From positions 1 to 22,820 of IMG/VR virus record IMGVR_UViG_3300025880_000126: a stretch of DNA of 22,820 nt. The stretch is one strand, 5' to 3'. The position numbers were made by a program, and so were the translations under genes. This DNA is from a virus. Under the pieces are notes generated by a model that was not told the origin of the DNA, searched no databases, and saw only the letters and a program-made list of their open reading frames with translations. Positions 2 to 14,332 of this stretch are shown here, in pieces. How positions within the stretch are numbered: the stretch's first letter is position 1; each line of letters begins with the position of its first letter.

Positions 2-2761
2 TCGGGCTCAAACGGTACCTCAGGCTCATCAGGTACTTCAGGCAATTCAGGCTCTTCAGGCTCATCAGGAACTTCAGGCAGTTCAGGTACTTCAGGTACA
101 TCAGGTTCAAATGGTACCTCAGGCTCTTCAGGTACTTCAGGTACCTCAGGCTCATCAGGCACTTCAGGCACTTCAGGTTCAAATGGCTCATCAGGTTCAT
201 CTGGTACATCTGGTTCTTCAGGAACTTCAGGTACATCAGGTACTAACGGCTCTTCAGGTTCATCAGGTACTTCAGGTTCATCAGGTACTTCAGGTACTTC
301 AGGTTCAAACGGCTCATCAGGTTCATCAGGTACATCAGGTAGTTCAGGTACCTCAGGAAATTCAGGTACATCAGGCTCATCAGGAACTTCTGGTTCAAAT
401 GGTTCATCAGGTTCTTCAGGCACTTCAGGCTCATCAGGAACTTCAGGTACTAATGGTACATCAGGTACTAACGGTTCATCAGGTTCCTCGGGTACATCAG
501 GTAACTCAGGTACATCAGGTAGTTCAGGTACCTCAGGAAATTCAGGTACATCAGGCTCATCAGGTACTTCTGGTTCAGCTGGTTCTTCAGGCTCATCGGG
601 AACTTCAGGCTCATCAGGAACTTCAGGTACTAATGGTACATCAGGTACTAACGGTTCATCAGGTTCCTCGGGTACATCAGGTACATCAGGTAGTTCAGGT
701 ACCTCAGGAAATTCAGGTACATCAGGCTCATCAGGTACTTCTGGTTCAGCTGGTTCTTCAGGCTCATCGGGTACTTCAGGTACTTCTGGATTATCAGGTG
801 TAAATGGTGCCGATGGTACTAATGGCACATCAGGTACTAATGGTACATCAGGTACTTCAGGTTCATCAGGTTCATCAGGTTCATCAGGTACTTCTGGTTC
901 ATCAGGCACATCAGGTAGCTCAGGTACCTCAGGCTCATCAGGTACTTCAGGAACTTCTGGTTCAAATGGTTCATCCGGCTCATCAGGAACTTCAGGCTCA
1001 TCAGGAACTTCAGGCTCATCAGGTACTTCAGGAACTTCTGGTTCAAATGGTTCATCCGGCTCATCAGGAACTTCAGGCTCATCAGGAACTTCAGGCTCAT
1101 CAGGAACTTCAGGTACTTCAGGTACTAATGGTACATCAGGTACTAACGGTTCATCAGGTTCTTCAGGCACTTCAGGCTCATCAGGTACTTCAGGTACTAG
1201 TGGTAACTCAGGTAATAGTGGTTCATCAGGTTCTTCAGGAACTTCAGGTTCATCTGGTACTTCAGGTACTTCTGGCTCAAATGGTACTTCAGGAACTTCA
1301 GGTTCAAATGGTTCATCAGGTTCATCAGGAACCTCAGGTTCATCAGGCACTTCAGGTACCTCAGGTTCAAATGGTACCTCAGGAACTTCTGGTTCAAATG
1401 GCTCATCAGGTTCATCAGGAACTTCAGGTACTTCGGGCTCAAACGGTACTTCAGGCTCATCAGGAACTTCAGGTACTTCAGGCTCATCAGGAACTTCAGG
1501 TACCTCAGGTTCAAATGGTACTTCAGGCTCATCAGGAACATCAGGTTCATCAGGCACTTCAGGTACCTCAGGTTCAAATGGTACCTCAGGAACTTCTGGT
1601 TCAAATGGCTCATCAGGCTCATCAGGAACATCAGGTTCATCTGGCACTTCAGGTACCTCAGGTTCAAATGGTACCTCAGGAACTTCTGGTTCAAATGGCT
1701 CATCAGGCTCATCAGGAACTTCAGGTACTTCAGGCTCAAACGGTACTTCAGGCTCATCAGGAACTTCAGGAAACTCGGGTAATAACGGTACTTCAGGCTC
1801 ATCAGGCACATCAGGTACTTCAGGCTCATCAGGTACTTCAGGTACTTCAGGTTCAAATGGTACCTCAGGTTCTTCAGGTACCTCAGGTACTTCAGGTTCA
1901 AACGGTACCTCAGGTTCTTCAGGTACTTCAGGAACTTCAGGTAGCTCAGGTACCTCAGGAAACTCAGGAAACAATGGTAACAATGGTACCTCAGGTACTT
2001 CAGGTTCAAACGGTACCTCAGGTTCTTCAGGTACCTCAGGAAACTCAGGAAACAATGGTAACAATGGTACCTCAGGTACTTCAGGTTCAAACGGTACCTC
2101 AGGCTCATCAGGTACTTCAGGTAGCTCAGGTACTTCAGGAAACTCAGGAAACAATGGTAACAATGGTACCTCAGGTACTTCAGGTTCAAACGGTACCTCA
2201 GGTTCTTCAGGTACCTCAGGAAACTCAGGTAACAACGGTAACAACGGTACTTCAGGCTCTTCAGGTACTTCAGGTACTTCAGGCTCTTCAGGTACCTCAG
2301 GAAACTCAGGTAACAACGGTAACAACGGTACTTCAGGCTCTTCAGGTACTTCAGGAAACTCAGGTAACAACGGTAACAACGGTACTTCAGGCTCTTCAGG
2401 TACTTCAGGTACTTCAGGCTCTTCAGGTACCTCAGGAAACTCAGGTAACAACGGTAACGACGGTAATGATGGCACATCAGGAAGCTCAGGTACCTCAGGA
2501 AACTCAGGTACTTCAGGCTCTTCAGGTACTTCAGGTACTTCAGGCTCTTCAGGTACCTCAGGAAACTCAGGTAACAACGGTAACGACGGTAATGATGGTA
2601 CATCAGGAAGCTCAGGTACCTCAGGAAACTCAGGTACTTCAGGCTCTTCAGGTACCTCAGGAAACTCAGGTACTTCAGGTTCATCAGGTACCTCAGGAAA
2701 CTCAGGAAACAATGGTAACGATGGAAACAATGGTACATCAGGTTCATCAGGAGCATATGGT
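2..2761 (+). repeat. Gly-X-Y triplet-encoding repeat tract, block 1
   Basis: About 920 consecutive codon triplets with Gly at every third position and no break in phase, encoding mostly GTS, GSS, GNS, GSN and GTN, then GNN from about 1780 and GND from about 2455. The only richer patch is at 782-820 (TSGLSGVNGADGTNG). At the DNA level there are nested near-exact tandem copies: 180 bp offset (361-540 against 541-720), 171 bp offset (511 onward against 682 onward), 81 bp offset (961 against 1042) and 90 bp offset (1561 against 1651). This points to repeated unequal exchange or slippage. All six frames are largely open here because the repeat unit contains no stop in most phases. Confidence 0.95.
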
Positions 2762-4063
2762 GGTGTTCCATTCCAATTCTCTACTGGAACAAGTAATCTA
2801 CCAGCTAACGGTAAAGTCCAATTTAACAATTCTAGCCTAGGAAGTGTAACTATTATATACATTAGTACTACTAACTCTGATGGTATAGGTACTACAGATT
2901 TTTTAAGTGATTTTTCTAAAGGAATTATATACCTTAAATCAGCTAATGGTTCTGATTCTAGTATAATTACAGCTAATGTAACAGCGGTTGCTCAAGGTGC
3001 TAATGCGTCTGTATATAATTTTACTGTAAATAATGTTGTAGGTTCTACCTTTACAAATAATGAAAGAATAAGTTTAATATTAGCCCCTCAAGGTGATTCA
3101 GGTACATCAGGCTCTTCAGGTACCTCAGGAAACTCAGGAAACAATGGTAACGATGGTAACGATGGTTCATCAGGCTCATCAGGTACATCAGGAAACTCAG
3201 GAAACGATGGTAATGATGGTTCATCAGGTAGCTCAGGTACATCAGGAAACTCAGGTAACGACGGTAATGATGGTACCTCAGGTAGCTCAGGTACATCAGG
3301 AAACTCAGGTAACGATGGAAACGATGGAAACGATGGTACCTCAGGTAGCTCAGGTACTTCAGGAAACTCAGGTAACGACGGTAACGACGGTAATGATGGT
3401 TCATCAGGCTCATCAGGTACTTCAGGAAACTCAGGAAACGATGGTAACGATGGAAACGATGGTACCTCAGGTTCATCAGGTACTTCAGGAAACTCAGGAA
3501 ACAATGGTAACGATGGAAACGATGGTACCTCAGGCTCTTCAGGTACCTCAGGAAACTCAGGTAACAATGGTAACAATGGTACCTCAGGTTCATCAGGTAC
3601 TTCAGGTAATAGCTTTAGTATTACATCAGCTGCTGCCAATACAACCTACCGCGTTATTATGGCAGATGGATCAGGAAATACCATATATAGAGATGGTGCT
3701 AATGAATTAGATTATGTAACAGGTACTACTGCTCAAGAGTTAAGGGTAGGTGGTGATGTTATCGCATATTATTCATCAGATAAAAGGTTAAAAGAAAACA
3801 TTGAACCTATTATATCTGCTTCAGCTAAATTATCTCAATTAGGAGGTTATACATTCGATTGGAATGAAATTAGTGGTAAAACCGGTACTGAAATTGGTGT
3901 AATAGCCCAAGAAATTGAAACCCAATTCCCAGAACTAGTAACTACTAGAAAAAATGGATATAAAGCTGTTAAATACGATAAATTAGTAGCAGTATTAATT
4001 CAATCAAATAAAGAATTACTTGAAAGAGTAGAAGCTTTAGAAAAAGAAGTTTATAAAAAATAA
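2..4063 (+). CDS. Giant collagen-like tail fibre with C-terminal S74 intramolecular chaperone (5' partial)
   Basis: Frame 2 is open from the first base to the TAA at 4061-4063, giving 1353 visible residues; the start lies upstream of the window. In order the protein shows about 920 Gly-X-Y triplets (2-2761), a non-repetitive domain of about 110 residues (2762-3091), 174 further Gly-X-Y residues (3092-3613), a short linker, and a C-terminal Peptidase_S74/endosialidase-type chaperone with its SDKRLKEN signature at 3776 and a final coiled coil. Families with this end are trimeric phage fibres; the chaperone drives trimerisation and is then usually autocleaved before the conserved Ser. X and Y are almost only Thr, Ser, Asn and Asp, with no Pro in either block, which is unusual for a collagen-like helix. 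The gene sits directly upstream of a two-domain glycosyltransferase, so glycosylation of Ser/Thr is plausible. Role as a host-binding fibre is inferred; the repeats and chaperone are directly seen. Confidence 0.9.
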   Translation, partial: SGSNGTSGSSGTSGNSGSSGSSGTSGSSGTSGTSGSNGTSGSSGTSGTSGSSGTSGTSGSNGSSGSSGTSGSSGTSGTSGTNGSSGSSGTSGSSGTSGTSGSNGSSGSSGTSGSSGTSGNSGTSGSSGTSGSNGSSGSSGTSGSSGTSGTNGTSGTNGSSGSSGTSGNSGTSGSSGTSGNSGTSGSSGTSGSAGSSGSSGTSGSSGTSGTNGTSGTNGSSGSSGTSGTSGSSGTSGNSGTSGSSGTSGSAGSSGSSGTSGTSGLSGVNGADGTNGTSGTNGTSGTSGSSGSSGSSGTSGSSGTSGSSGTSGSSGTSGTSGSNGSSGSSGTSGSSGTSGSSGTSGTSGSNGSSGSSGTSGSSGTSGSSGTSGTSGTNGTSGTNGSSGSSGTSGSSGTSGTSGNSGNSGSSGSSGTSGSSGTSGTSGSNGTSGTSGSNGSSGSSGTSGSSGTSGTSGSNGTSGTSGSNGSSGSSGTSGTSGSNGTSGSSGTSGTSGSSGTSGTSGSNGTSGSSGTSGSSGTSGTSGSNGTSGTSGSNGSSGSSGTSGSSGTSGTSGSNGTSGTSGSNGSSGSSGTSGTSGSNGTSGSSGTSGNSGNNGTSGSSGTSGTSGSSGTSGTSGSNGTSGSSGTSGTSGSNGTSGSSGTSGTSGSSGTSGNSGNNGNNGTSGTSGSNGTSGSSGTSGNSGNNGNNGTSGTSGSNGTSGSSGTSGSSGTSGNSGNNGNNGTSGTSGSNGTSGSSGTSGNSGNNGNNGTSGSSGTSGTSGSSGTSGNSGNNGNNGTSGSSGTSGNSGNNGNNGTSGSSGTSGTSGSSGTSGNSGNNGNDGNDGTSGSSGTSGNSGTSGSSGTSGTSGSSGTSGNSGNNGNDGNDGTSGSSGTSGNSGTSGSSGTSGNSGTSGSSGTSGNSGNNGNDGNNGTSGSSGAYGGVPFQFSTGTSNLPANGKVQFNNSSLGSVTIIYISTTNSDGIGTTDFLSDFSKGIIYLKSANGSDSSIITANVTAVAQGANASVYNFTVNNVVGSTFTNNERISLILAPQGDSGTSGSSGTSGNSGNNGNDGNDGSSGSSGTSGNSGNDGNDGSSGSSGTSGNSGNDGNDGTSGSSGTSGNSGNDGNDGNDGTSGSSGTSGNSGNDGNDGNDGSSGSSGTSGNSGNDGNDGNDGTSGSSGTSGNSGNNGNDGNDGTSGSSGTSGNSGNNGNNGTSGSSGTSGNSFSITSAAANTTYRVIMADGSGNTIYRDGANELDYVTGTTAQELRVGGDVIAYYSSDKRLKENIEPIISASAKLSQLGGYTFDWNEISGKTGTEIGVIAQEIETQFPELVTTRKNGYKAVKYDKLVAVLIQSNKELLERVEALEKEVYKK
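2762..3091 (+). other. Globular insertion domain inside the collagen-like fibre
   Basis: Non-repetitive segment of about 110 residues within the same reading frame, beginning GVPFQFSTGTSNLPANGKVQ and ending just before the second Gly-X-Y block. The pattern (aromatic plus STGTS, then GKVQFNN, a central Ile/Tyr-rich strand, an 'IIYLKSANG' strand, and a final 'FTNNERISL') resembles a small beta-rich domain that I recall seeing beside collagen-like repeats in other phage tail fibres. The family match is from memory and is inferred, not shown. It would interrupt the rod and could be a kink, a trimer register clamp or a receptor-binding knob. Confidence 0.6.
3092..3613 (+). repeat. Gly-X-Y triplet-encoding repeat tract, block 2 (Gly-Asn-Asp rich)
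   Basis: A second in-frame Gly-X-Y tract of 174 residues built from units of about 18 to 21 residues of the form GTSGSSGTSGNSG followed by two or three GND or GNN triplets. Compared with block 1 it is much more acidic because of the repeated Gly-Asn-Asp. It directly precedes the C-terminal chaperone, so it is probably near the distal end of the fibre. No proline is present. Confidence 0.9.
3776..4060 (+). other. S74-type intramolecular chaperone domain of the fibre
   Basis: The final 95 residues begin with SDKRLKENIEPI and continue through GGYTFDW, IGVIAQEIETQFPELV, KAVKYDKLVAVLIQ and a terminal heptad-like LLERVEALEKEVYKK. This is the characteristic order of the chaperone-of-endosialidase (Peptidase_S74) family: SD.RLKENI, a YTFDW-like strand, IG.IAQE, the 'Y.KL.A.L..A..EL' helix and a coiled coil. 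Family members fold the trimer and then cleave themselves just before the conserved Ser, here the TCA codon at 3776. Cleavage in this protein is inferred from the preserved Ser-Asp and downstream Arg/Lys. Confidence 0.9.
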
Positions 4064-4072
4064 AAAGTAAGT

Positions 4073-4091
4073 AGGGGGGCTAGTCCCCCCT
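4073..4091 (+). terminator. G6/C6 hairpin after the fibre gene, probable terminator
   Basis: AGGGGGG (4073-4079), loop CTAGT, CCCCCCT (4085-4091) forms a perfect 7-bp GC-rich stem starting 10 bases after the fibre stop codon. The downstream sequence is T-rich only in part (TTCATACATTTAG), so this is not a textbook rho-independent terminator, but the stem is very stable in an otherwise AT-rich genome. Confidence 0.7.
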
Positions 4092-4098
4092 TCATACA

Positions 4099-4114
4099 TT
4101 TAGTTACAACTAAA
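4099..4114 (+). promoter_or_regulatory. 16-bp palindrome upstream of the glycosyltransferase gene
   Basis: TTTAGTT-AC-AACTAAA is a perfect inverted repeat with 7-bp arms, 15 bases before the ATG at 4130 and after the fibre hairpin. It could be an operator or a small RNA hairpin near the 5' end of the glycosyltransferase message. No Shine-Dalgarno sequence is present; the leader is AAAAATATAAAGTTATAT. Function is inferred from position and symmetry only. Confidence 0.35.
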
Positions 4115-4129
4115 AATATAAAGTTATAT

Positions 4130-6448
4130 ATGAAACAACCTAAAATATTTGGACATGGTCCTTATGTAGGCACTACAGGATATAGTAATCACACCCGTGA
4201 TTTCTTTAGAGGTATTTCAAATCATTTTCCTTTAAAATTTAGAAATTTTACTGTAGGTAAAAGTTGGGATGGGATGAGTGATGAACCTCATAATAATGAA
4301 TCCTATCTTACAAATTTAGATAAAAAAATACTTCATACTCAAACTGTTTTTAATAATAAACAAGAATTAGAAGATAAAAGAATGTATTCTTCTTTTGGAG
4401 AAGATTTTAATCATAATCTTAATCTAATATTGATGGAAACCAACCATCACTATTTCTACCAGAATTATAAAGGTCCTAAAATTGGTTATAATGTATGGGA
4501 ATCAACCCTACAACCTGAAGGATTTTTTAATAAATGGTGTGAATTTGATCAATTATGGGTTCCTTCCAAATGGCAAGCTCAATGCACCATAGACCAGGGT
4601 GCCGATCCTAATAAAGTAAAAGTAGTCCCTGAAGGTGTGGATGTAGACACATTCTACCCAGAAGATCCACAAACAACATTAGATTATGTAGATGGTAGGT
4701 TTAAATTTATTCATTTTGGACGTTGGGATTATAGAAAATCTACTAAAGAAATTATTGAAGCCTTTTTAAATGAATTTACCCCATCAGAACCCATAGATTT
4801 AATTCTATCTATTGATAATATGTGGGGTAAAGATATGGACGGTTTTGAGACTACAGAAGAACGTTTAGAGCATTATGGATTTACTGATGAGCGTTTAAAA
4901 ATCAAACATTTCCCTTTACGTGAAGATTATATCACATATTTAAAAAATGGTCACGTATTTTTATCATGTGCTAGGGCTGAAGGATGGAATTTACCATTAA
5001 TTGAAGCCATGGCTTGTGGTACCCCTTCTATATACTCAGCTTGTTCAGCACAAATGGAATTTGCTAAGGGTAAAGGTTTACCTGTAAAAGTAATAGGTGA
5101 AAAATCTACTCAAAATAATTCGTATGGTAGATACGATAAAATGGTAGGGAGTACTAATATTCCTGGTAACTATTACGAACCTGATTATAAAGATTTAGGT
5201 CGTGTAATGCGCGATGCTTTTGAAAATTATACAGATCATAAAAAACGTGCTATAGAAGAAGCTAAAATCATCCACCGTGATTTTAATTGGGAAAAAGTAG
5301 CAGAAATAGGTAGAGATACTATTCAAGAATTTATGGATAATTATGTAGCCCCTCCGATAAAACCTAATGAAATTTTAATTTCATATTTAGATGGTCCTAA
5401 AGTAGAAATAGTAGGAGATGAAGATAAAGAATATTTAGTAGAATTTATTAATAGTGATACTAATGAAATTCTTCATAAAACTACTACGAAAAATAATATG
5501 TGGGTTACTTGTAATAAAAAATATTACATCCCATGGATTATTAAAATCAATGGTAGAATTGTAGATACTTTAGATTTAAATAATAAGGAAATTTTAATTA
5601 CTTTAGAATCGAAATCAATAGGTGATACTTTAGCTTGGGCTCCTTATGTTGTAGAATTTGCCAAAAAACATAATTGTAAAGTTATATTTTCTACTTTCCA
5701 TAACAAATGGTTCCAGGGATTAAATACTTATAAAGATATTACATTTATCCCACCAGGTACTTCAGTTAAATGTGATGCCGTTTATAGAATTGGATGGTTT
5801 AAAGAAAATGGAAAATGGGAAGCTTTTGATAAAAACCCAACCCAAGTTAATTTAATACCTTTGCAACAAACAGCAACTGATATTTTAGGGTTAGAATTCC
5901 AAGAATTAAATTATGGGGTTAATTTTAAACCATCTAAACGTCCAATAAAAAATAAATATATTTGTATAGCACCTCGCGCAACTGCTGGATGTAAAGAATG
6001 GCCTCATGAATATTGGACTCAATTAGCAAAACATCTAAATGAATTAGGGTATAAAGTAGTAAATATATCTTATGAGGGTTTTCAAAGTGATTTTATTATT
6101 GATAAACCTAAATTATCTTGGAAAGACACTTATACCTATTTACACCACGCTGAATTATTTATAGGATTAAGCTCAGGTTTATCATGGTTTAATTGGGCTT
6201 CAAATAATCATACAGTAATGATTAGTGCTTTTACTGAAGATAATCACGAATTTACATCCAATGTCACACGTATATCTAGTAAAGCATGTTTTCCTTGTTG
6301 GAATAATAAAAACTTTATGTTTGATGCTGGTGATTGGGATTGGTGTCCTATATGGAAAGGAACAGATAAACAACATATTTGTCACAAATCAATTTTACCT
6401 ACTAAAGTTATTACAGAAATAAAAGATTTATTAAATAATAAAAAATAA
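4130..6448 (+). CDS. Two-domain glycosyltransferase: GT4-type fused to autotransporter O-heptosyltransferase-like (TibC/AAH family)
   Basis: The 772-residue protein has two catalytic units. Residues about 1-405 look like a GT-B, GT4-type retaining transferase: FGRWDYRKS (G197 to K203) and the E-x7-E motif EGWNLPLIE (E284, E292) followed by AMACGTP. Residues about 413-772 match the autotransporter O-heptosyltransferase family: a beta-rich lead-in with NMWVTCNKKYYIPWII, then SKSIGDTLAWAPYV (S494-V507), GLSSGLSW, and a cysteine finger at C720, C723, C739 and C751 with the framing GDWDWCP and KGT.KQ. In TibC the equivalent CxxC plus Cys plus Cys binds iron; the CxxC and the 16-residue step to the third Cys are the same here. 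Known relatives attach heptose to Ser of autotransporter adhesins. The neighbour is a Ser/Thr-rich fibre, so that fibre is the natural candidate acceptor. Donor sugars are unknown. Modification of host surface glycans is an alternative. Confidence 0.85.
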   Translation: MKQPKIFGHGPYVGTTGYSNHTRDFFRGISNHFPLKFRNFTVGKSWDGMSDEPHNNESYLTNLDKKILHTQTVFNNKQELEDKRMYSSFGEDFNHNLNLILMETNHHYFYQNYKGPKIGYNVWESTLQPEGFFNKWCEFDQLWVPSKWQAQCTIDQGADPNKVKVVPEGVDVDTFYPEDPQTTLDYVDGRFKFIHFGRWDYRKSTKEIIEAFLNEFTPSEPIDLILSIDNMWGKDMDGFETTEERLEHYGFTDERLKIKHFPLREDYITYLKNGHVFLSCARAEGWNLPLIEAMACGTPSIYSACSAQMEFAKGKGLPVKVIGEKSTQNNSYGRYDKMVGSTNIPGNYYEPDYKDLGRVMRDAFENYTDHKKRAIEEAKIIHRDFNWEKVAEIGRDTIQEFMDNYVAPPIKPNEILISYLDGPKVEIVGDEDKEYLVEFINSDTNEILHKTTTKNNMWVTCNKKYYIPWIIKINGRIVDTLDLNNKEILITLESKSIGDTLAWAPYVVEFAKKHNCKVIFSTFHNKWFQGLNTYKDITFIPPGTSVKCDAVYRIGWFKENGKWEAFDKNPTQVNLIPLQQTATDILGLEFQELNYGVNFKPSKRPIKNKYICIAPRATAGCKEWPHEYWTQLAKHLNELGYKVVNISYEGFQSDFIIDKPKLSWKDTYTYLHHAELFIGLSSGLSWFNWASNNHTVMISAFTEDNHEFTSNVTRISSKACFPCWNNKNFMFDAGDWDWCPIWKGTDKQHICHKSILPTKVITEIKDLLNNKK

Positions 6449-6451
6449 TAT

Positions 6452-6462
6452 AATATTTATAA
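6452..6462 (+). promoter_or_regulatory. Recurrent late-gene motif AATATTTATAA (copy 1)
   Basis: Copy of a motif also found before four other late genes. Here it ends two bases before the ATG at 6465, so a promoter at this site would leave almost no leader. It contains TATTTATA, the reverse complement of the T4 late promoter octamer TATAAATA. Confidence 0.4.
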
Positions 6463-6464
6463 AC

Positions 6465-6716
6465 ATGAAAAAAGTGTTATTAGAAAAAAAAGAGTTAGAT
6501 ACTATTAAAGAAATTCAACAAACTGAATTAAATTTAGTAAACCAGCTAGGAAATCTTGAATACCAAATCCAAACTTTACAGTTACAAAAAAATGATTTGA
6601 ATACTGAAATTGTTAAATTACAATCCAAAAGTCAAAAATTTGGTGATGATCTTCAACAAAAATATGGAGATGGAAACATTAACATAGAAACAGGAGAGTT
6701 TACAAAAATAGATTAA
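6465..6716 (+). CDS. Small coiled-coil protein, unknown function
   Basis: An 83-residue, charged protein with no Cys. Residues about 10-65 form a long heptad pattern (TIKEIQQTELNLVNQLGNLEYQ then IQTLQLQKNDLNTEIVKLQS), a clear coiled-coil signature, followed by a short polar tail GDGNINIETGEF. There is no signal peptide or membrane segment. It lies between the glycosyltransferase and the tail sheath gene and is preceded closely by the AATATTTATAA motif, so it is likely a late gene. It could be a small virion or assembly factor. I recognise no family and assign no function. Confidence 0.75.
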   Translation: MKKVLLEKKELDTIKEIQQTELNLVNQLGNLEYQIQTLQLQKNDLNTEIVKLQSKSQKFGDDLQQKYGDGNINIETGEFTKID

Positions 6717-6733: not shown

Positions 6734-6745
6734 AATATTTATAAC
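6734..6745 (+). promoter_or_regulatory. Recurrent late-gene motif AATATTTATAAC (copy 2)
   Basis: Lies 20 bases upstream of the sheath ATG in an A/T-rich leader with no Shine-Dalgarno sequence. Same core as the copies before the tube, tape measure and 12184 genes. Candidate late promoter element. Confidence 0.45.
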
Positions 6746-6765: not shown

Positions 6766-8508
6766 ATGGCAGAAACATTAATATCACCCGGTGTATTAGC
6801 AAGAGAGAATGACCAGTCATTTATTACGCAGCAACCTGTTCAAGTAGGAGCTGCTATCGTTGGTCCTGCGGTTAAGGGTCCAGTAGAGGTACCTACAGTA
6901 GTTACATCTTATAGTGATTATCAAAACAGATTTGGAACTACATTTGATAGTGGTAGTGAAGTATTTTCTTATTTTACTTCAATTGCTGCTTATAATTACT
7001 TCAACAATGGTGGTAACACTTTATTAGTTACTAGAGTAGTATCAGGCTCACTTACAGCATGGGATTATGCTGAAGCAGAAGTTGCTGCTTCAAGTAGTGG
7101 TACTTCATTTACTTTAGAAGCTATTGATAAAGGTGTTATTTTTAATAATACAAGTTCAGTTACTTCAGGTTCATTAGATTCAGGCTCAGTAGATAACGTA
7201 AGATGGCAAGTAGTTGCTCGTAATGAATCATCAGGTACTTTCTCATTAGTAATTAGAAGAGGTGATGATAGAAATGATAATCCAATTGTTTTAGAAACAT
7301 GGAATAATTTATCATTAGATCCTAACTCGGATAACTTTATTTCTAGAGTAATAGGTGATACTAAATTTAATTATAACTCAACAGAAAATTATTTAGAAAT
7401 CTCAGGTTCATTCCCTAACGCTTCTAGATATGTAAGAGTAAAATCTGTAAGCAAAGCAACCCCAAATTATTTAAATAATGGTGGTGACCCAAAATCTGAA
7501 TATACAGGTTCAATCCCTGCACTAGGTTCAGGCTCTTATAATGGTTCATTTAGTAGTGGTGAAGGTAAAAACATCTCATCATATTCTGCTGGTGGTAATT
7601 ACTATGGTAAAGCAGGTACAAGTTCAGGAGCTACAACAGGTGTAACTCAAGGTTTAATAGGTAGTGATTATGATAATATGCTTGATTTATTATCAAACCA
7701 AGATGATTACCAATTTAATGTCTTATTAACACCGGGGCTATTTGATAAAGTTCATGCTTCTCAAACAACAACAGCAATTAACAATACACAAACAAGAGGA
7801 GATAATATTTATGTTTTAGATCCTGTAGTATATGGTTCAACTATTGTTAACGCTACAGGTCAAGGTGATGCTAGAAATACCTCATACGCAGCTATGTACT
7901 GGCCTTGGTTACAAACATTCGAACCAGATTCAGGTAAAAATGTTTGGGTACCAGCATCAACAATGATGGGGGGAGTTTACGCATTTAACGACAGTGTAAG
8001 CGAGCCATGGTTTGCTCCAGCGGGTATCAACAGAGGAGGATTAACTAACGTAATTCGCCCTGAAAGAAAATTATCTCAAGGTAATAGAGATACTTTATAT
8101 GAAGCAAATATTAACCCAATTGCATCATTCCCTGGAACAGGAACAGTAGTATATGGTCAGAAAACATTACAAAAACAAGCTTCTGCGCTTGATAGAGTAA
8201 ATGTTAGAAGATTATTAATTGCTCTTAAATCTTATATTGGACAAGTTGCTCAAACATTAGTATTTGAACAAAATACAGCAGCTACAAGAAATAATTTCTT
8301 AGCAGCAGTAAACCCATATTTAGAAACAGTTCAACAAAGACAAGGTTTATATGCTTTTAAAGTAGTAATGGATGATAGCAATAATACTCCGGATGTAATT
8401 GATAGAAACCAATTAGTAGGTGCTATTTATTTACAACCAACAAAAACAGCTGAATTTATTTACTTAGACTTTAACGTATTACCAACGGGAGCAACTTTCC
8501 CATCGTAA
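6766..8508 (+). CDS. gp18: Tail sheath protein (T4 gp18-like)
   Basis: The 580-residue protein has the canonical sheath N-terminus (ISPGVLARENDQSF, then VGAAIVGPAVKGPVEVPTVVTSYSDYQNRFG), a variable Ser/Gly-rich middle that is probably surface-exposed, and the conserved C-terminal domain: ASFPGTGTVVYGQKTLQ, SALDRVNVRRLLIALKSYIG, TLVFEQNTAATRNNFL and the closing Val/Asp-rich strand YLQPTKTAEFIYLDF. The last region is the strand donated between neighbouring subunits in contractile sheaths. Length is a little under T4 gp18 (659 residues). It is followed directly by the tube gene, the usual order. The protein forms the outer contractile tube that drives injection. The ATG at 6766 is preferred because it begins the conserved N-terminus. 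Confidence 0.97.
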   Translation: MAETLISPGVLARENDQSFITQQPVQVGAAIVGPAVKGPVEVPTVVTSYSDYQNRFGTTFDSGSEVFSYFTSIAAYNYFNNGGNTLLVTRVVSGSLTAWDYAEAEVAASSSGTSFTLEAIDKGVIFNNTSSVTSGSLDSGSVDNVRWQVVARNESSGTFSLVIRRGDDRNDNPIVLETWNNLSLDPNSDNFISRVIGDTKFNYNSTENYLEISGSFPNASRYVRVKSVSKATPNYLNNGGDPKSEYTGSIPALGSGSYNGSFSSGEGKNISSYSAGGNYYGKAGTSSGATTGVTQGLIGSDYDNMLDLLSNQDDYQFNVLLTPGLFDKVHASQTTTAINNTQTRGDNIYVLDPVVYGSTIVNATGQGDARNTSYAAMYWPWLQTFEPDSGKNVWVPASTMMGGVYAFNDSVSEPWFAPAGINRGGLTNVIRPERKLSQGNRDTLYEANINPIASFPGTGTVVYGQKTLQKQASALDRVNVRRLLIALKSYIGQVAQTLVFEQNTAATRNNFLAAVNPYLETVQQRQGLYAFKVVMDDSNNTPDVIDRNQLVGAIYLQPTKTAEFIYLDFNVLPTGATFPS

Positions 8509-8522
8509 AAGTTTAGATAACA

Positions 8523-8533
8523 AATATTTATAA
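8523..8533 (+). promoter_or_regulatory. Recurrent late-gene motif AATATTTATAA (copy 3)
   Basis: Copy 19 bases upstream of the tail tube ATG, with the same spacing as before the sheath gene. The leader is purely A/T-rich (TAGAATAAATTAAACAACA) and has no Shine-Dalgarno sequence. Confidence 0.45.
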
Positions 8534-10117: not shown

Positions 10118-10127
10118 TATTTATAAC
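10107..10127 (+). promoter_or_regulatory. Perfect 21-bp palindrome containing the late motif in both orientations
   Basis: Left arm GTTATAAATA (10107-10116), centre A, right arm TATTTATAAC (10118-10127) are exact inverted repeats overlapping the chaperone stop codon. The right half is the AATATTTATAAC motif (10116-10127), the left half carries TATAAATA, the T4 late octamer. A further TATAAATA lies at 10129-10136, four bases before the tape measure ATG at 10141. Likely late promoter and/or protein-binding site. Confidence 0.5.
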
Positions 10128-10140
10128 ATATAAATAAATT

Positions 10141-12153
10141 ATGGCAGCATCAGACGAAATTAAAAAATCCACAGCAGCAGCAAAAGAAACTCGAGAAGAA
10201 TTAGAGGGAATTATTGATGCTGTTAAAAATATTGGGGTTAAACTTCAAGAAGCACTTGCTGATGCTATTGATGAGGCTCAAGGATTAGATGATGTTGGTC
10301 AAAAAGTAGCTAAAAGTTATGGAAGAGATATTGTAGGCGGACTTAAAAAAATGACTACAAGTTTTGATAAACAATTAGCTTTACAAGCTAAACTTAATAA
10401 AGGTCAAAACATATCTAAAGAATTAGCAAAAGAAAGAGAAAAACAAGCAGCTAGTGAAGCTGTAATTCAATCTAGAATTAATAATTTATCAAAAAATGAT
10501 GTTGAGTTAAAGCAAAAACTCCAAAATGAGCTTGCTGAAGTTAAATTAAGAGGGGATGCTATTTTAGAAGGTTTAGAACAACAAAATACTAATCTAGTTG
10601 CTCAAAGAGGACTTGTAAGTAGTGTTGGTCAAAATGCTAAAGAATATCTTATAAGTTTAGATAAATCAGGATTAGCAGCTGAAATACTTGAAGGTAATTT
10701 AAGTGGAGCTCAATCAATGGCATTATTAGCTGAAGCGGCCTTAGTAGCAATTGCTAAAGCTACATTAGAAGGTAGTAATCGAATAGCTGAACTAGAAAAA
10801 AATCTAGGAATCAGTTACCAATCAGCATATAGATTACAGATAAGTTTTATAGCAACAGCTAATGCCTCAGAAAAGTTATTTATTACTTCTAAAGATATTT
10901 TAAAGTCATTTTCTGATATAGCATCTCAAACTGGGATTATTTCTGATTTTGGGGGTGATACACTAGTTACAATGACTGCTTTAACTAAACAATTAGGTTT
11001 AGGGGTAAAAGAAGCATCTCAATTATCATTATTAGCCAGAACACAAGGAGAAGATACTGAAGGTATTTTAGATAGTACTGTAGAAACTGTTAATGCTGTT
11101 AACAGACAAAGAAAAAGTGCTATTAGTGCTAAAGCAGTTTTAAATGATATATCTACTGCTTCTGCTTCAATTGTAGTGTCATTAGGAATGTCTCCTCAAT
11201 TATTAGCTGAAGCTGCTACTGAAGCTAGAGCTTTAGGTTTAAGTCTAGAAGGAGTAGATAAAATCGCAGGTTCATTATTAGATTTTGAATCTTCAATTGA
11301 AAATGAACTAAAATTCCAGATGCTAACTGGTAAAGAAATCAATTTAGATAAAGCCAGACAATTAGCACTAGATAATGATTTAGCAGGACTTTCAGAAGAA
11401 ATTGCTAAAAATTCTGAAATTACAGAAGCATTTGCTACAGGTAATAGAATTCAACAACAAGCAGCAGCCGATGCCTTAGGTATGTCTCGTGATGAGTTAG
11501 CTCAAATGGTAATGCAACAAGAGTTTTTAAACCTCTCCCAGGATGAATATATCGAAAAATTTGGAGAGCAATCATACCAACAAATGCAAGCTATGTCAGC
11601 TAGTGATAAGTTTGCTGCTTCAATGGAAAAAATTAAAGGAGTTATAACAGATATTGGTACCATATTTGCCCCTATAGTTGATTTGTTTGCTTCAATAGTT
11701 GGATATTTAGCTCAATCTGAGTATTTTGTATATGCTATTACTGGAGCTTTAGGAGCTATGGCTGCTAAAGCCTCTATTGCTGCTAGTAAATCTATTGTTA
11801 AAGCAGTAGCTGATATTTTTAGTGGTAGTTTTAAAATGAACCCAATTTTAGGTTTTGCTTTAGCAGGAGCCGGAGTTGGTGCTCTTTTTGCTGCGGTTAG
11901 TAAAGCACAAGCAGTAGAAGATGGTATTGCAGATTCTTCACGTGGTCCTTTTACTATTACCGATTCATATGGTAAAATGGCTATGACAGCTAAAGGTGAT
12001 AACTTAGCAGTATCTCCTAATATTAATAAAGGTGGAGGTGGTGATAGTAAAATGTTATCTGTACTAGAACAAATAGCTCAAAAAGACTCAAATGTTTATA
12101 TGGATTCATCAAAAGTTGGGTATGCTGAATCATTAAGTTATAGTAAACTATAA
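10141..12153 (+). CDS. Tail tape measure protein
   Basis: A 670-residue, Ala/Lys/Glu/Gln-rich, mostly helical protein. The N-terminal half is long coiled coil (residues about 1-170, for example AKELAKEREKQAASEAVIQS), the middle has helical segments such as KDILKSFSDIASQTGIISDF and MTALTKQLGLGVKEASQLSL, and two hydrophobic stretches follow (about 500-560 and 568-588, the latter NPILGFALAGAGVGALFAAV). Long coiled coil plus late hydrophobic segments, with a position directly after the chaperone pair, is typical of tape measures, which set tail length and help DNA cross the host membrane. At roughly 0.15 nm per residue, 670 residues would suit a tail of about 100 nm. I see no peptidase or lysozyme domain within it. 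Confidence 0.88.
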   Translation: MAASDEIKKSTAAAKETREELEGIIDAVKNIGVKLQEALADAIDEAQGLDDVGQKVAKSYGRDIVGGLKKMTTSFDKQLALQAKLNKGQNISKELAKEREKQAASEAVIQSRINNLSKNDVELKQKLQNELAEVKLRGDAILEGLEQQNTNLVAQRGLVSSVGQNAKEYLISLDKSGLAAEILEGNLSGAQSMALLAEAALVAIAKATLEGSNRIAELEKNLGISYQSAYRLQISFIATANASEKLFITSKDILKSFSDIASQTGIISDFGGDTLVTMTALTKQLGLGVKEASQLSLLARTQGEDTEGILDSTVETVNAVNRQRKSAISAKAVLNDISTASASIVVSLGMSPQLLAEAATEARALGLSLEGVDKIAGSLLDFESSIENELKFQMLTGKEINLDKARQLALDNDLAGLSEEIAKNSEITEAFATGNRIQQQAAADALGMSRDELAQMVMQQEFLNLSQDEYIEKFGEQSYQQMQAMSASDKFAASMEKIKGVITDIGTIFAPIVDLFASIVGYLAQSEYFVYAITGALGAMAAKASIAASKSIVKAVADIFSGSFKMNPILGFALAGAGVGALFAAVSKAQAVEDGIADSSRGPFTITDSYGKMAMTAKGDNLAVSPNINKGGGGDSKMLSVLEQIAQKDSNVYMDSSKVGYAESLSYSKL

Positions 12154-12158
12154 AATTT

Positions 12159-12170
12159 AATATTTATAAC
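12159..12170 (+). promoter_or_regulatory. Recurrent late-gene motif AATATTTATAAC (copy 5)
   Basis: Exact copy of the 12-base form, 13 bases before the ATG at 12184. The spacing is the same as that between the tape measure copy (10116-10127) and its ATG. It lies six bases past the tape measure stop codon. Confidence 0.45.
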
Positions 12171-12183
12171 AAAACACAATATT

Positions 12184-12399
12184 ATGGGATTATTAAATAA
12201 ATTAACAAATAACGGTTCAAATTTAACTTCATTTAATGGGGCTACTCCTGCTAATATGCCTGGTGCGAGTGATTTATCACCTTTACATGATCAATACTCG
12301 ATCAATGGTAACCCCAACCTGCAGAATAAACCACAACCTTCTACATTAGATTTAGATGGTTTAACTCCTCCTAAGTATACAGATAACTTACCAGGATAA
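12184..12399 (+). CDS. Small hypothetical virion-region protein
   Basis: A 71-residue protein rich in Asn, Pro, Leu and Ser, with no hydrophobic segment or Cys. The C-terminal half (ASDLSPLHDQYSINGNPN and PSTLDLDGLTPPKYTDNLPG) looks like an extended, conserved-type peptide rather than a folded domain. It has its own AATATTTATAAC motif and is followed after four bases by the next structural gene, so the pair is probably co-transcribed. It is likely a small structural or assembly protein of the tail; I do not recognise a family. Confidence 0.7.
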   Translation: MGLLNKLTNNGSNLTSFNGATPANMPGASDLSPLHDQYSINGNPNLQNKPQPSTLDLDGLTPPKYTDNLPG

Positions 12400-12403
12400 T
12401 TAA

Positions 12404-14332
12404 ATGCCGTTAGTAGACTTAAAAACCGACCTTAGATCTCTAAGATTTGGCTCCCCTAACAATCCAGGAGATAGACCTGCTGGTGGGTGGAGTAATCAAC
12501 CTTATATATCAACACCTATTGGAGCTGATTTTTTAGCTCCAACCCCTAATCGCTTTGCTATAGGAAATGGTAGTGATTTTATTTTAAGGGGTGGAGTAAG
12601 TGCTTTTGTAGATGCCTCTACAGATGTTGTAAGGTTAGGTAAAATGTTTACTGATATTAAATCTCCAAATGGTATACAATTTTTAGCAAAACAAAATCTC
12701 CTATCAATGACGGGAGTGAATATATTTGCTGGATATAATACTATAACAAGAATAGCTAATAGAGCAAGATTAAATGATGGTATTTATACTCCATTATCTA
12801 CATTTTTAGCAGCAGGTCCTATAGGAAATCTTATTGGTGGTCACCCATTAAAACAAGGTTCAGACCCAACTGGAAACAATATAGCATTTAGTAGACCTCA
12901 ATATACTAATTTAGTTAATAGATCCAACCCAGTTTTAAGAAATAATTCAAGACTTTTAACCCTTGATAAAAAATTTGTTCGACAACAAACATTTGGTCCT
13001 TTATTCTCTTATTTAGGGGGACCCAATGCAGGTGCTGATGTTGCTTCTATTAATACTATTATTAGTTTTGCTAAAGATGGTACTAGAACAGGTATTAATA
13101 ACCCATTATTTACAGGTGATCGCCCATTTTTCTTTGGTAAAGGAGGAGCTACTCTTACTAATACTGAATTAAATAAATTAAGTAATAATTCATTTAGGAC
13201 AACAGGTAAAGCTGTAGATTTTAGAAGAAAAATCACTTCTAAAGTTATTGGTATTACACAACATGATATAGCTAGAAGAAATGGTACTTTAACTAATGCC
13301 CCAGGTTATAACCTGAAAAACTTTGAAAAAAGAGTAAACGCCGGTAACCCAGGTAATCCCTCGCTTAATAGAAGTAACTATTCTTCGGGTGCTATAGACC
13401 CTACAACAGGTAAAACAAATGTAGTAAATAAAATTAATGCATTGTATATGTACAATGCTGATAATGTTACACAACAAAATGCTGCTGTAAATGATTTTGT
13501 TAAATTTAGATTTGCGGTAATTAACCCAGATAATCCAAAACGAAAAACCTTTGTTCACTTCCCAGCTTTCTTTGATGGTGCTATTAATGATAATATGGGT
13601 GCTAGTTGGGGTAGTTTTAAATATTTAGGTAGAGGTGAAGAATTCTTTAATTACGAAGGATTTACTAGAAGTGTAGGTTTTAGTTTCCAAGTAGTAGCTC
13701 AATCAAAACCTGAGTTATCTATAATGTACCAAAAACTAAATTATCTTCAATCAACTCTAGCACCAAATTTTAGTGAAAATGGGTTTATGAGAGGTAATAT
13801 TCATCAATTAACTATTGGTGGTTACTTTTTTGAACAACCTGGTGTAATTACATCTTTAAGTTATACAATGCCTACTGATTCCCCGTGGGAAATAAGCATT
13901 CCTTCATCGAACCAATCCACCGCCAATATAGGTGGTAACACGTATAGAGATCCCGCAGTAAAAGAATTAACTCACATTATTAATGTTTCTGTTGAATTTA
14001 AACCAATTCAAAGATTCTTACCACAAACTATAGGTTCACCTTTTGATACTACAAATAAAGATGGTATATTTGGTAAAAATAATATTAAACAAAAATTTAT
14101 ACAATTAGCTAATGGGACAGAAGCAAATCAAAATTTATATGATTTAGGAGTTCCTAATGCTGTAGTAATTCCAAATCCTCAGGAATCTTTACCAGATTTA
14201 GCTATTAGTGAAGTTGAACTTGAAGAAATCCCTGAAGAAGATGATTTTGAATTTATAGATATTTTAGGTCAAAGAAGGGCGGCAGAGGCAGAAGAAGCAT
14301 ATACTAACGAGATATTTAATCAAAGATTTTAA
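12404..14332 (+). CDS. Large virion structural protein, probable baseplate or tube-associated protein
   Basis: A 642-residue protein. The N-terminal half is Gly/Asn-rich and irregular. A compact C-terminal beta-rich domain (about 365-530) runs FVKFRFAVINPDNPKRKTFVHFPAF, WGSFKYLGRGEEFFNYEGFTRSVGFSFQVVA, KPELSIMYQKLNYLQSTLAP, GNIHQLTIGGYFFEQPGVITSLSYTMPTDSPWEI, HIINVSVEFKPIQRF; such tube-fold-like patterns occur in baseplate tube-initiator proteins (gp48/gp54-like). The final 40 residues are acidic and helical. It sits between tape measure and gp53-like genes and overlaps the latter by one base (TAATG), implying coupled translation. The baseplate role is inferred from position and fold pattern; the exact homologue is not identified. 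Confidence 0.7.
   Translation: MPLVDLKTDLRSLRFGSPNNPGDRPAGGWSNQPYISTPIGADFLAPTPNRFAIGNGSDFILRGGVSAFVDASTDVVRLGKMFTDIKSPNGIQFLAKQNLLSMTGVNIFAGYNTITRIANRARLNDGIYTPLSTFLAAGPIGNLIGGHPLKQGSDPTGNNIAFSRPQYTNLVNRSNPVLRNNSRLLTLDKKFVRQQTFGPLFSYLGGPNAGADVASINTIISFAKDGTRTGINNPLFTGDRPFFFGKGGATLTNTELNKLSNNSFRTTGKAVDFRRKITSKVIGITQHDIARRNGTLTNAPGYNLKNFEKRVNAGNPGNPSLNRSNYSSGAIDPTTGKTNVVNKINALYMYNADNVTQQNAAVNDFVKFRFAVINPDNPKRKTFVHFPAFFDGAINDNMGASWGSFKYLGRGEEFFNYEGFTRSVGFSFQVVAQSKPELSIMYQKLNYLQSTLAPNFSENGFMRGNIHQLTIGGYFFEQPGVITSLSYTMPTDSPWEISIPSSNQSTANIGGNTYRDPAVKELTHIINVSVEFKPIQRFLPQTIGSPFDTTNKDGIFGKNNIKQKFIQLANGTEANQNLYDLGVPNAVVIPNPQESLPDLAISEVELEEIPEEDDFEFIDILGQRRAAEAEEAYTNEIFNQRF

Follow-up and report, generated by a model that had tools for sequence, protein, structure and literature searches.

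A TibC-like glycosyltransferase encoded beside a proline-free collagen-like tail fibre is a probable modifier of that fibre in a marine phage

Collagen-like repeats without proline raise a question of stability; proline-free Gly-X-Y repeats are expected to form weak triple helices. Such a protein is encoded in the window analysed here, a linear virus fragment of 22,820 bp from a phage described as marine, where a Ser/Thr-rich, Pro-free Gly-X-Y fibre gene (2-4063, + strand) is followed, after a gap of 66 bp, by the gene for a 772-residue enzyme (4130-6448, + strand). The first-pass annotation of the window had described this arrangement, with coordinates, lengths and cysteine numbers that all proved correct, and had proposed that the phage uses the enzyme to glycosylate its own fibre. 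To our knowledge, virion glycosylation is known in few phages.

The fibre ORF encodes 1353 aa and its 5′ end lies beyond the window edge; a complete homologue with an ATG start is present in another record (L008, 3879-7934, 1351 aa). Stretches with seven or more consecutive Gly-X-Y triplets contribute 364 triplets, with GTS accounting for 42%, GSS for 27.5% and GNS for 8%. Position X is occupied by Thr (45%), Ser (34%) and Asn (20%) and position Y by Ser (78%), Asn (15%) and Asp (6%), with Thr confined to X. About 80% of the X and Y positions are Ser or Thr and none is Pro, of which the whole ORF contains five. Ser occupies Y in 75–81% of triplets in the window fibre, in the enzyme-positive phage set and in the bacterial set alike. 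The collagen profile PF01391 matches the fibre with 93.6 bits, and the C-terminus (about 3776-3943, + strand) matches Peptidase_S74 (PF13884; 62.4 bits, cut-off 22), an intramolecular chaperone typical of trimeric tail fibres. Based on the uninterrupted Gly-X-Y runs and the C-terminal Peptidase_S74 domain, the protein is classed as a collagen-like tail fibre with an S74 chaperone, and a triple helix is predicted.

The gap between the two genes contains a G/C hairpin (4073-4091, AGGGGGG-CTAGT-CCCCCCT), with no T-run 3′ of it on the + strand. Sixteen bp downstream of the enzyme gene is an ORF of 83 aa with no assigned function (6465-6716, + strand), and beyond it are the genes for the contractile tail sheath protein (6766-8508, + strand; phrog_23, 1.2e-76; Pfam Phage_sheath_1) and the tail tube (8553), and a match to a T4-type baseplate protein (9133). 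The sheath gene at 6766 places the enzyme inside the virion-structure gene cluster. The sequence TATTTATA is found at 6454-6461, 6736-6743, 8525-8532, 10118-10125 and 12161-12168, shortly upstream of consecutive structural ORFs, and these sites perhaps represent a late-promoter motif, the total count of which is weakly above chance. The late-promoter motif TATAAATA occurs 10 times in the window against 5.5 expected, a number reached by 6% of shuffles, and was discarded as evidence.

The enzyme is a fusion of two glycosyltransferase halves. The N-terminal half (residues 1-405; 4130-5344, + strand) is of the GT4 (GT-B) type, matching PF00534 (Glycos_transf_1) at residues 189-312 with 34.6 bits (cut-off 26.4) and, in Foldseek searches, HepE, MshA and GlgM; it contains the E-x7-E motif EGWNLPLIE, in which E284 and E292 are nearly invariant. 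The C-terminal half (residues 411-772; 5360-6448, + strand) is of the TibC/AAH O-glycosyltransferase type. TIGR04414 matches residues 415-766 with 236.8 bits (cut-off 200), and among PDB sequences the top hit is TibC (4rap; phmmer, 2.5e-40). TibC is also the top PDB match of the AlphaFold2 model of the enzyme (pLDDT 88) in Foldseek (4rap_A; E 1.6e-28, TMt 0.82), followed by GT4 enzymes and by weaker matches that include the SdgB structures 7ec1 and 7vfo. The curated model and the predicted fold both support membership of the TibC/AAH family.

The TibC-like half is composed of a beta-barrel, a GT9-like catalytic domain and a Cys4 finger. In TibC, D110 is the catalytic base, T226, K230, R286 and W305 hold the donor, and iron is bound by C339, C342, C358 and C370 (PMC4358343). 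The window enzyme contains the GDTLAW motif with D499 aligned to D110, has T618, K622 and W686 at the positions of T226, K230 and W305, and aligns C720, C723, C739 and C751 to the four cysteines of TibC, suggesting that the Cys4 iron finger is kept, with the metal predicted. The equivalents of D110, K230 and W305 are invariant in 85/85 family members aligned; in the phage enzymes, the first finger Cys is kept in 38/41 and the remaining three in 37-38/41. The two family assignments, the GDTLAW motif and the four-Cys finger had all been recognised in the first-pass annotation, and each is upheld by these profile matches and alignments.

Members of the autotransporter-heptosyltransferase family (BAHT) transfer ADP-heptose to Ser and are dodecameric. 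The ADP specificity of TibC is explained by an H-bond from R286 to adenine N1, and the alanine mutant is inactive (PMC4358343). The position of Arg-286 is Thr-667 in the window enzyme and is V, T, L, S or I across its clade (non-Arg in 18/18), while Arg is kept in 15/17 autotransporter-type enzymes. With the catalytic residues intact and R286 replaced, sugar transfer is expected and the label ‘heptosyltransferase’ exceeds the evidence; heptose as the sugar, as implied by the first-pass annotation, is not established, and ADP-heptose as the donor in the window clade is possible but not supported. As a marker of ADP-heptose supply, an HldE-C-like adenylyltransferase was rejected (5/24 enzyme-positive vs 2/22 enzyme-negative fibre records, p = 0.42). 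A heptose-1-phosphate adenylyltransferase above the curated cut-off was found only in G036, an enzyme-positive phage that keeps Arg-286, so the HldE-C-like gene gives no general support for heptose. In one relative (L036), a UDP-galactopyranose mutase gene (6896-7999, + strand) is located directly upstream of a GT4-TibC fusion, a hint that galactofuranose may be one donor.

The association of enzyme and fibre was surveyed in three sets of phage contigs, chosen solely by a DNA pattern for GTSG[ST]SGTSGTSG (n = 50), by a neutral 14-base pattern (n = 50), or by a pattern for GPX collagen, after inspection for real GXY runs (Pro-type, n = 49, L404 being included without a long run). TIGR04414 enzymes are present in 19/50 contigs with a GTSG-type fibre, 0/50 neutral contigs and 1/49 Pro-type contigs (Fisher p = 4.6e-7 and 5.8e-6 for the GTSG set against the neutral and Pro-type sets, respectively, with contigs treated as independent, which is true in part). 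The single Pro-type positive, G131, was dismissed as an exception, as it also encodes a 2645-aa Ser/Thr GXY ORF; without this mixed contig the Pro-type count is 0/48. Among records of at least 60 kb, the enzyme is found in 12/20 of the GTSG set, 1/15 of the Pro-type set and 0/12 of the neutral set. It is absent from 31/50 Ser/Thr-fibre contigs, most of which are fragments, as are most of the records surveyed, and such absences are weak.

In the reverse direction, 64 phage relatives were picked by the enzyme. The Ser/Thr fibre is directly upstream of the enzyme in the window and its closest relatives. In other relatives the order is Ser/Thr fibres, Pro-rich fibres, glycosyltransferase-like genes and then the enzyme; the Pro-rich fibres occupy this intermediate position in G006, G008, G011, G013, G015 and G131, and in several relatives these Ser/Thr-poor fibres are nearer the enzyme than the Ser/Thr fibres. 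Where no contig end interrupts the fibre cluster, the enzyme-selected records have a Ser/Thr-rich fibre, and those lacking one end at or before the fibre cluster. Three records that seemed fibre-less within 8 kb (L021, L032 and L038) were dismissed, as the whole records show Ser/Thr fibres farther upstream. A 46-kb fragment (G016) has no Ser/Thr fibre, and its left end is inside a low-Ser/Thr fibre gene. The co-occurrence that the first-pass annotation had anticipated among related phages stands, with one divergent and true exception, LR756504 (636 kb), where the enzyme is present and collagen-like repeats are absent from the whole genome, a case of the kind that the first-pass annotation had named as speaking against its proposal. 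This finding indicates that the enzyme branch is not strictly tied to collagen-like fibres; the fibre-enzyme pairing is a strong tendency and not a fixed rule.

In the 735-kb phage LR756501 the GTSG DNA pattern matches 218 times (reversed control, 0) and a TibC-like enzyme is encoded, and an isolate, Microcystis phage Mel-JY01 (PP395634), encodes a 1226-aa relative of the enzyme with GT4 and TibC-like parts. At the start of the Mel-JY01 record (L066, PP395634.1) there is a Ser/Thr GXY fibre ORF of at least 865 aa (2-2599, + strand), overlain by an antisense annotation on the wrong strand (WWT39287.1, 739-2298, − strand, with ‘VPEVPRVP’ repeats). Some TibC-like copies stand alone, at ~360-420 aa, and the relatives differ in whether this core is fused to GT4 or to a larger protein; given that the GT4 module is optional, the exactly two glycan steps of the first-pass annotation are not established. 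A 170-kb record (L518, IMGVR_UViG_3300046010_015054) encodes, at 11302-14309 on the − strand and beside two GPQGP collagen-like fibres, both a 2OG-Fe(II) oxygenase (PF13640, 1.1e-13) and a 794-aa GT4 + GT25 protein. The oxygenase is possibly a prolyl hydroxylase, in which case this phage might both hydroxylate and glycosylate Pro-rich collagen-like fibres.

The cellular TIGR04414-type enzymes are divided into an autotransporter type (53 loci), mostly found beside long Ser/Thr/Asn/Gly-rich adhesins, and a non-autotransporter group (27 loci) from methanotrophs, other gammaproteobacteria and phage-like contigs binned in MAGs. Ser/Thr GXY (GTSG) repeats are encoded within 7 kb in 20/27 loci of the non-autotransporter group vs 0/53 of the autotransporter type (p = 2.5e-13, with loci treated as independent, which is true in part). 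The bacterial repeats (GSS 37.5%, GTS 33.6%) are like those of the phage fibres in make-up. Often the repeats belong to a small secreted or lipoprotein-like protein whose gene adjoins the TibC-like gene, examples being found in Methylobacter, Methylococcaceae and Methylomicrobium (L533, L535, L537 and L547). The co-occurrence thus exceeds chance in both phages and bacteria. In the enzyme tree, a 100/100 branch separates the autotransporter enzymes from those of phages and GTSG-associated bacteria, which interleave with one another, well-supported branches forcing at least 10 changes between phage and cell labels. The interleaved tree and the bacterial gene pairs show that the pairing extends beyond a single phage lineage.

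These observations are best explained if the 772-aa protein acts as a protein O-glycosyltransferase of the phage, with the phage's own Ser/Thr-rich Gly-X-Y fibre as its substrate, a role that its sequence and genomic context make probable. The surveys back the pairing on which the first-pass annotation built the same proposal; the glycan itself is a prediction. Phage glycosyltransferases that act on host surface glycans are known from O-antigen conversion, and the enzyme could instead alter LPS or capsule, blocking superinfection or changing the receptor, with its position next to the fibre incidental. The match of the C-terminal half to Glyco_transf_9, the LPS heptosyltransferase family, and the glycosyltransferase-like neighbours in relatives are compatible with such a role, but the half scores 236.8 bits as TibC/AAH against 24 bits for the LPS heptosyltransferase I model (cut-off 185). 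The gene also lies among virion genes and is paired with Ser/Thr-GXY repeats across phage lineages and bacteria, making action on the host surface unlikely.

About equally improbable is that the enzyme glycosylates virion proteins but acts mainly on a different fibre or structural protein, the Pro-rich GPX fibres of the relatives being among the candidates. The intermediate position of the Pro-rich fibres in six relatives and the enzyme of LR756504 would fit this, whereas the contrast between Pro-type contigs (none positive, G131 aside) and Ser/Thr-fibre contigs, and the position of the Ser/Thr fibre, immediately before the enzyme in the window and in the closest relatives, argue against it. 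The two genes might also be frequent in the same lineages of large aquatic phages without being enzyme and substrate: glycosyltransferases of every kind are more numerous in larger phages, and several positives (L513, L514 and L518) have the sheath type of the window. The counts in size-matched records of at least 60 kb nevertheless retain the difference between the sets, and one lineage gives no explanation for the repeated phage/cell changes on the tree or for the independent bacterial gene pairs; hitch-hiking of this kind is very unlikely.

If the enzyme does act on the fibre, glycosylation would probably occur in the cytoplasm of the host, while the fibre is being assembled or earlier. The constant core, the TibC-like half, would transfer one sugar from a nucleotide donor to Ser hydroxyls in the (Gly-[Thr/Ser]-Ser)n repeats, Asp-499 serving as the putative catalytic base, like TibC/AAH acting on autotransporter adhesins. 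TibC modifies Ser, not Thr (PMC4358343), and in the fibre the glycan would be started on Ser, probably that in position Y. A second sugar is most likely contributed by the GT4 half, whose presence and form vary among relatives, and extension could be performed by this half or by neighbouring glycosyltransferases. The glycan may give the very long, thin fibre stability, hydration and protease resistance, stability being what repeats without proline may require of it; effects on host range are also possible.

The system is most similar to the BAHT enzymes TibC of ETEC and AAH of DAEC (TIGR04414), sharing the fold (TMt 0.82), the catalytic Asp/Lys/Trp, the Cys4 finger and a repetitive Ser-rich partner encoded nearby. 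It differs in that the enzyme is phage-encoded and fused to GT4, has Arg-286 replaced and is separated from the autotransporter-linked enzymes by the 100/100 branch, and in that a GXY phage fibre carrying Peptidase_S74 takes the place of the adjacent autotransporter beta-helix adhesin. O-glycans on triple-helix-like GXY repeats are found in BclA of Bacillus spores, which is Pro-Thr rich (GPT), and in the mimivirus collagens, which undergo lysyl hydroxylation and glucosylation; their enzymes belong to families other than the TibC type. SdgB, a weaker fold match, modifies Ser in simple staphylococcal serine-aspartate repeats; it is not TibC-like and its substrates are Gram-positive surface adhesins. 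In mycobacteriophages, capsid and tail-tube subunits are reported to carry glycans at their C-termini (Freeman et al. 2023, as described in PMC12619734). Phage structural proteins are glycan carriers there, as is predicted for the window, which differs in its TibC-type enzyme and long GXY fibres. A phage TibC-like protein has been named before (A0A6J5SVC1, ‘Glycosyltransferase Aah/TibC’). In the literature searched, no report joins ‘collagen-like’, ‘heptosyltransferase’ and ‘glycosylation’, and none describes TibC-type enzymes paired with Ser/Thr GXY fibres, the equivalent pairing in bacteria or the loss of Arg-286.

More tentatively, and on balance doubtfully as a whole, this distinct branch of the TibC/AAH family may be devoted to modifying (Gly-[Ser/Thr]-Ser)n repeats, in phages as well as in bacteria, with Ser glycosylation replacing (hydroxy)proline in holding Pro-free fibres together and with the clades lacking Arg-286 using a donor other than ADP-heptose. 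If fibre glycosylation proves true, GTS/GSS repeats together with a TibC-type enzyme would provide a rule that predicts glycosylated fibres in many uncultured phages and some bacteria. The autotransporter-heptosyltransferase family would gain a new class of substrate in these repeats, whose glycosylation would be a possible route from simple repeats to stiff or protected fibres.
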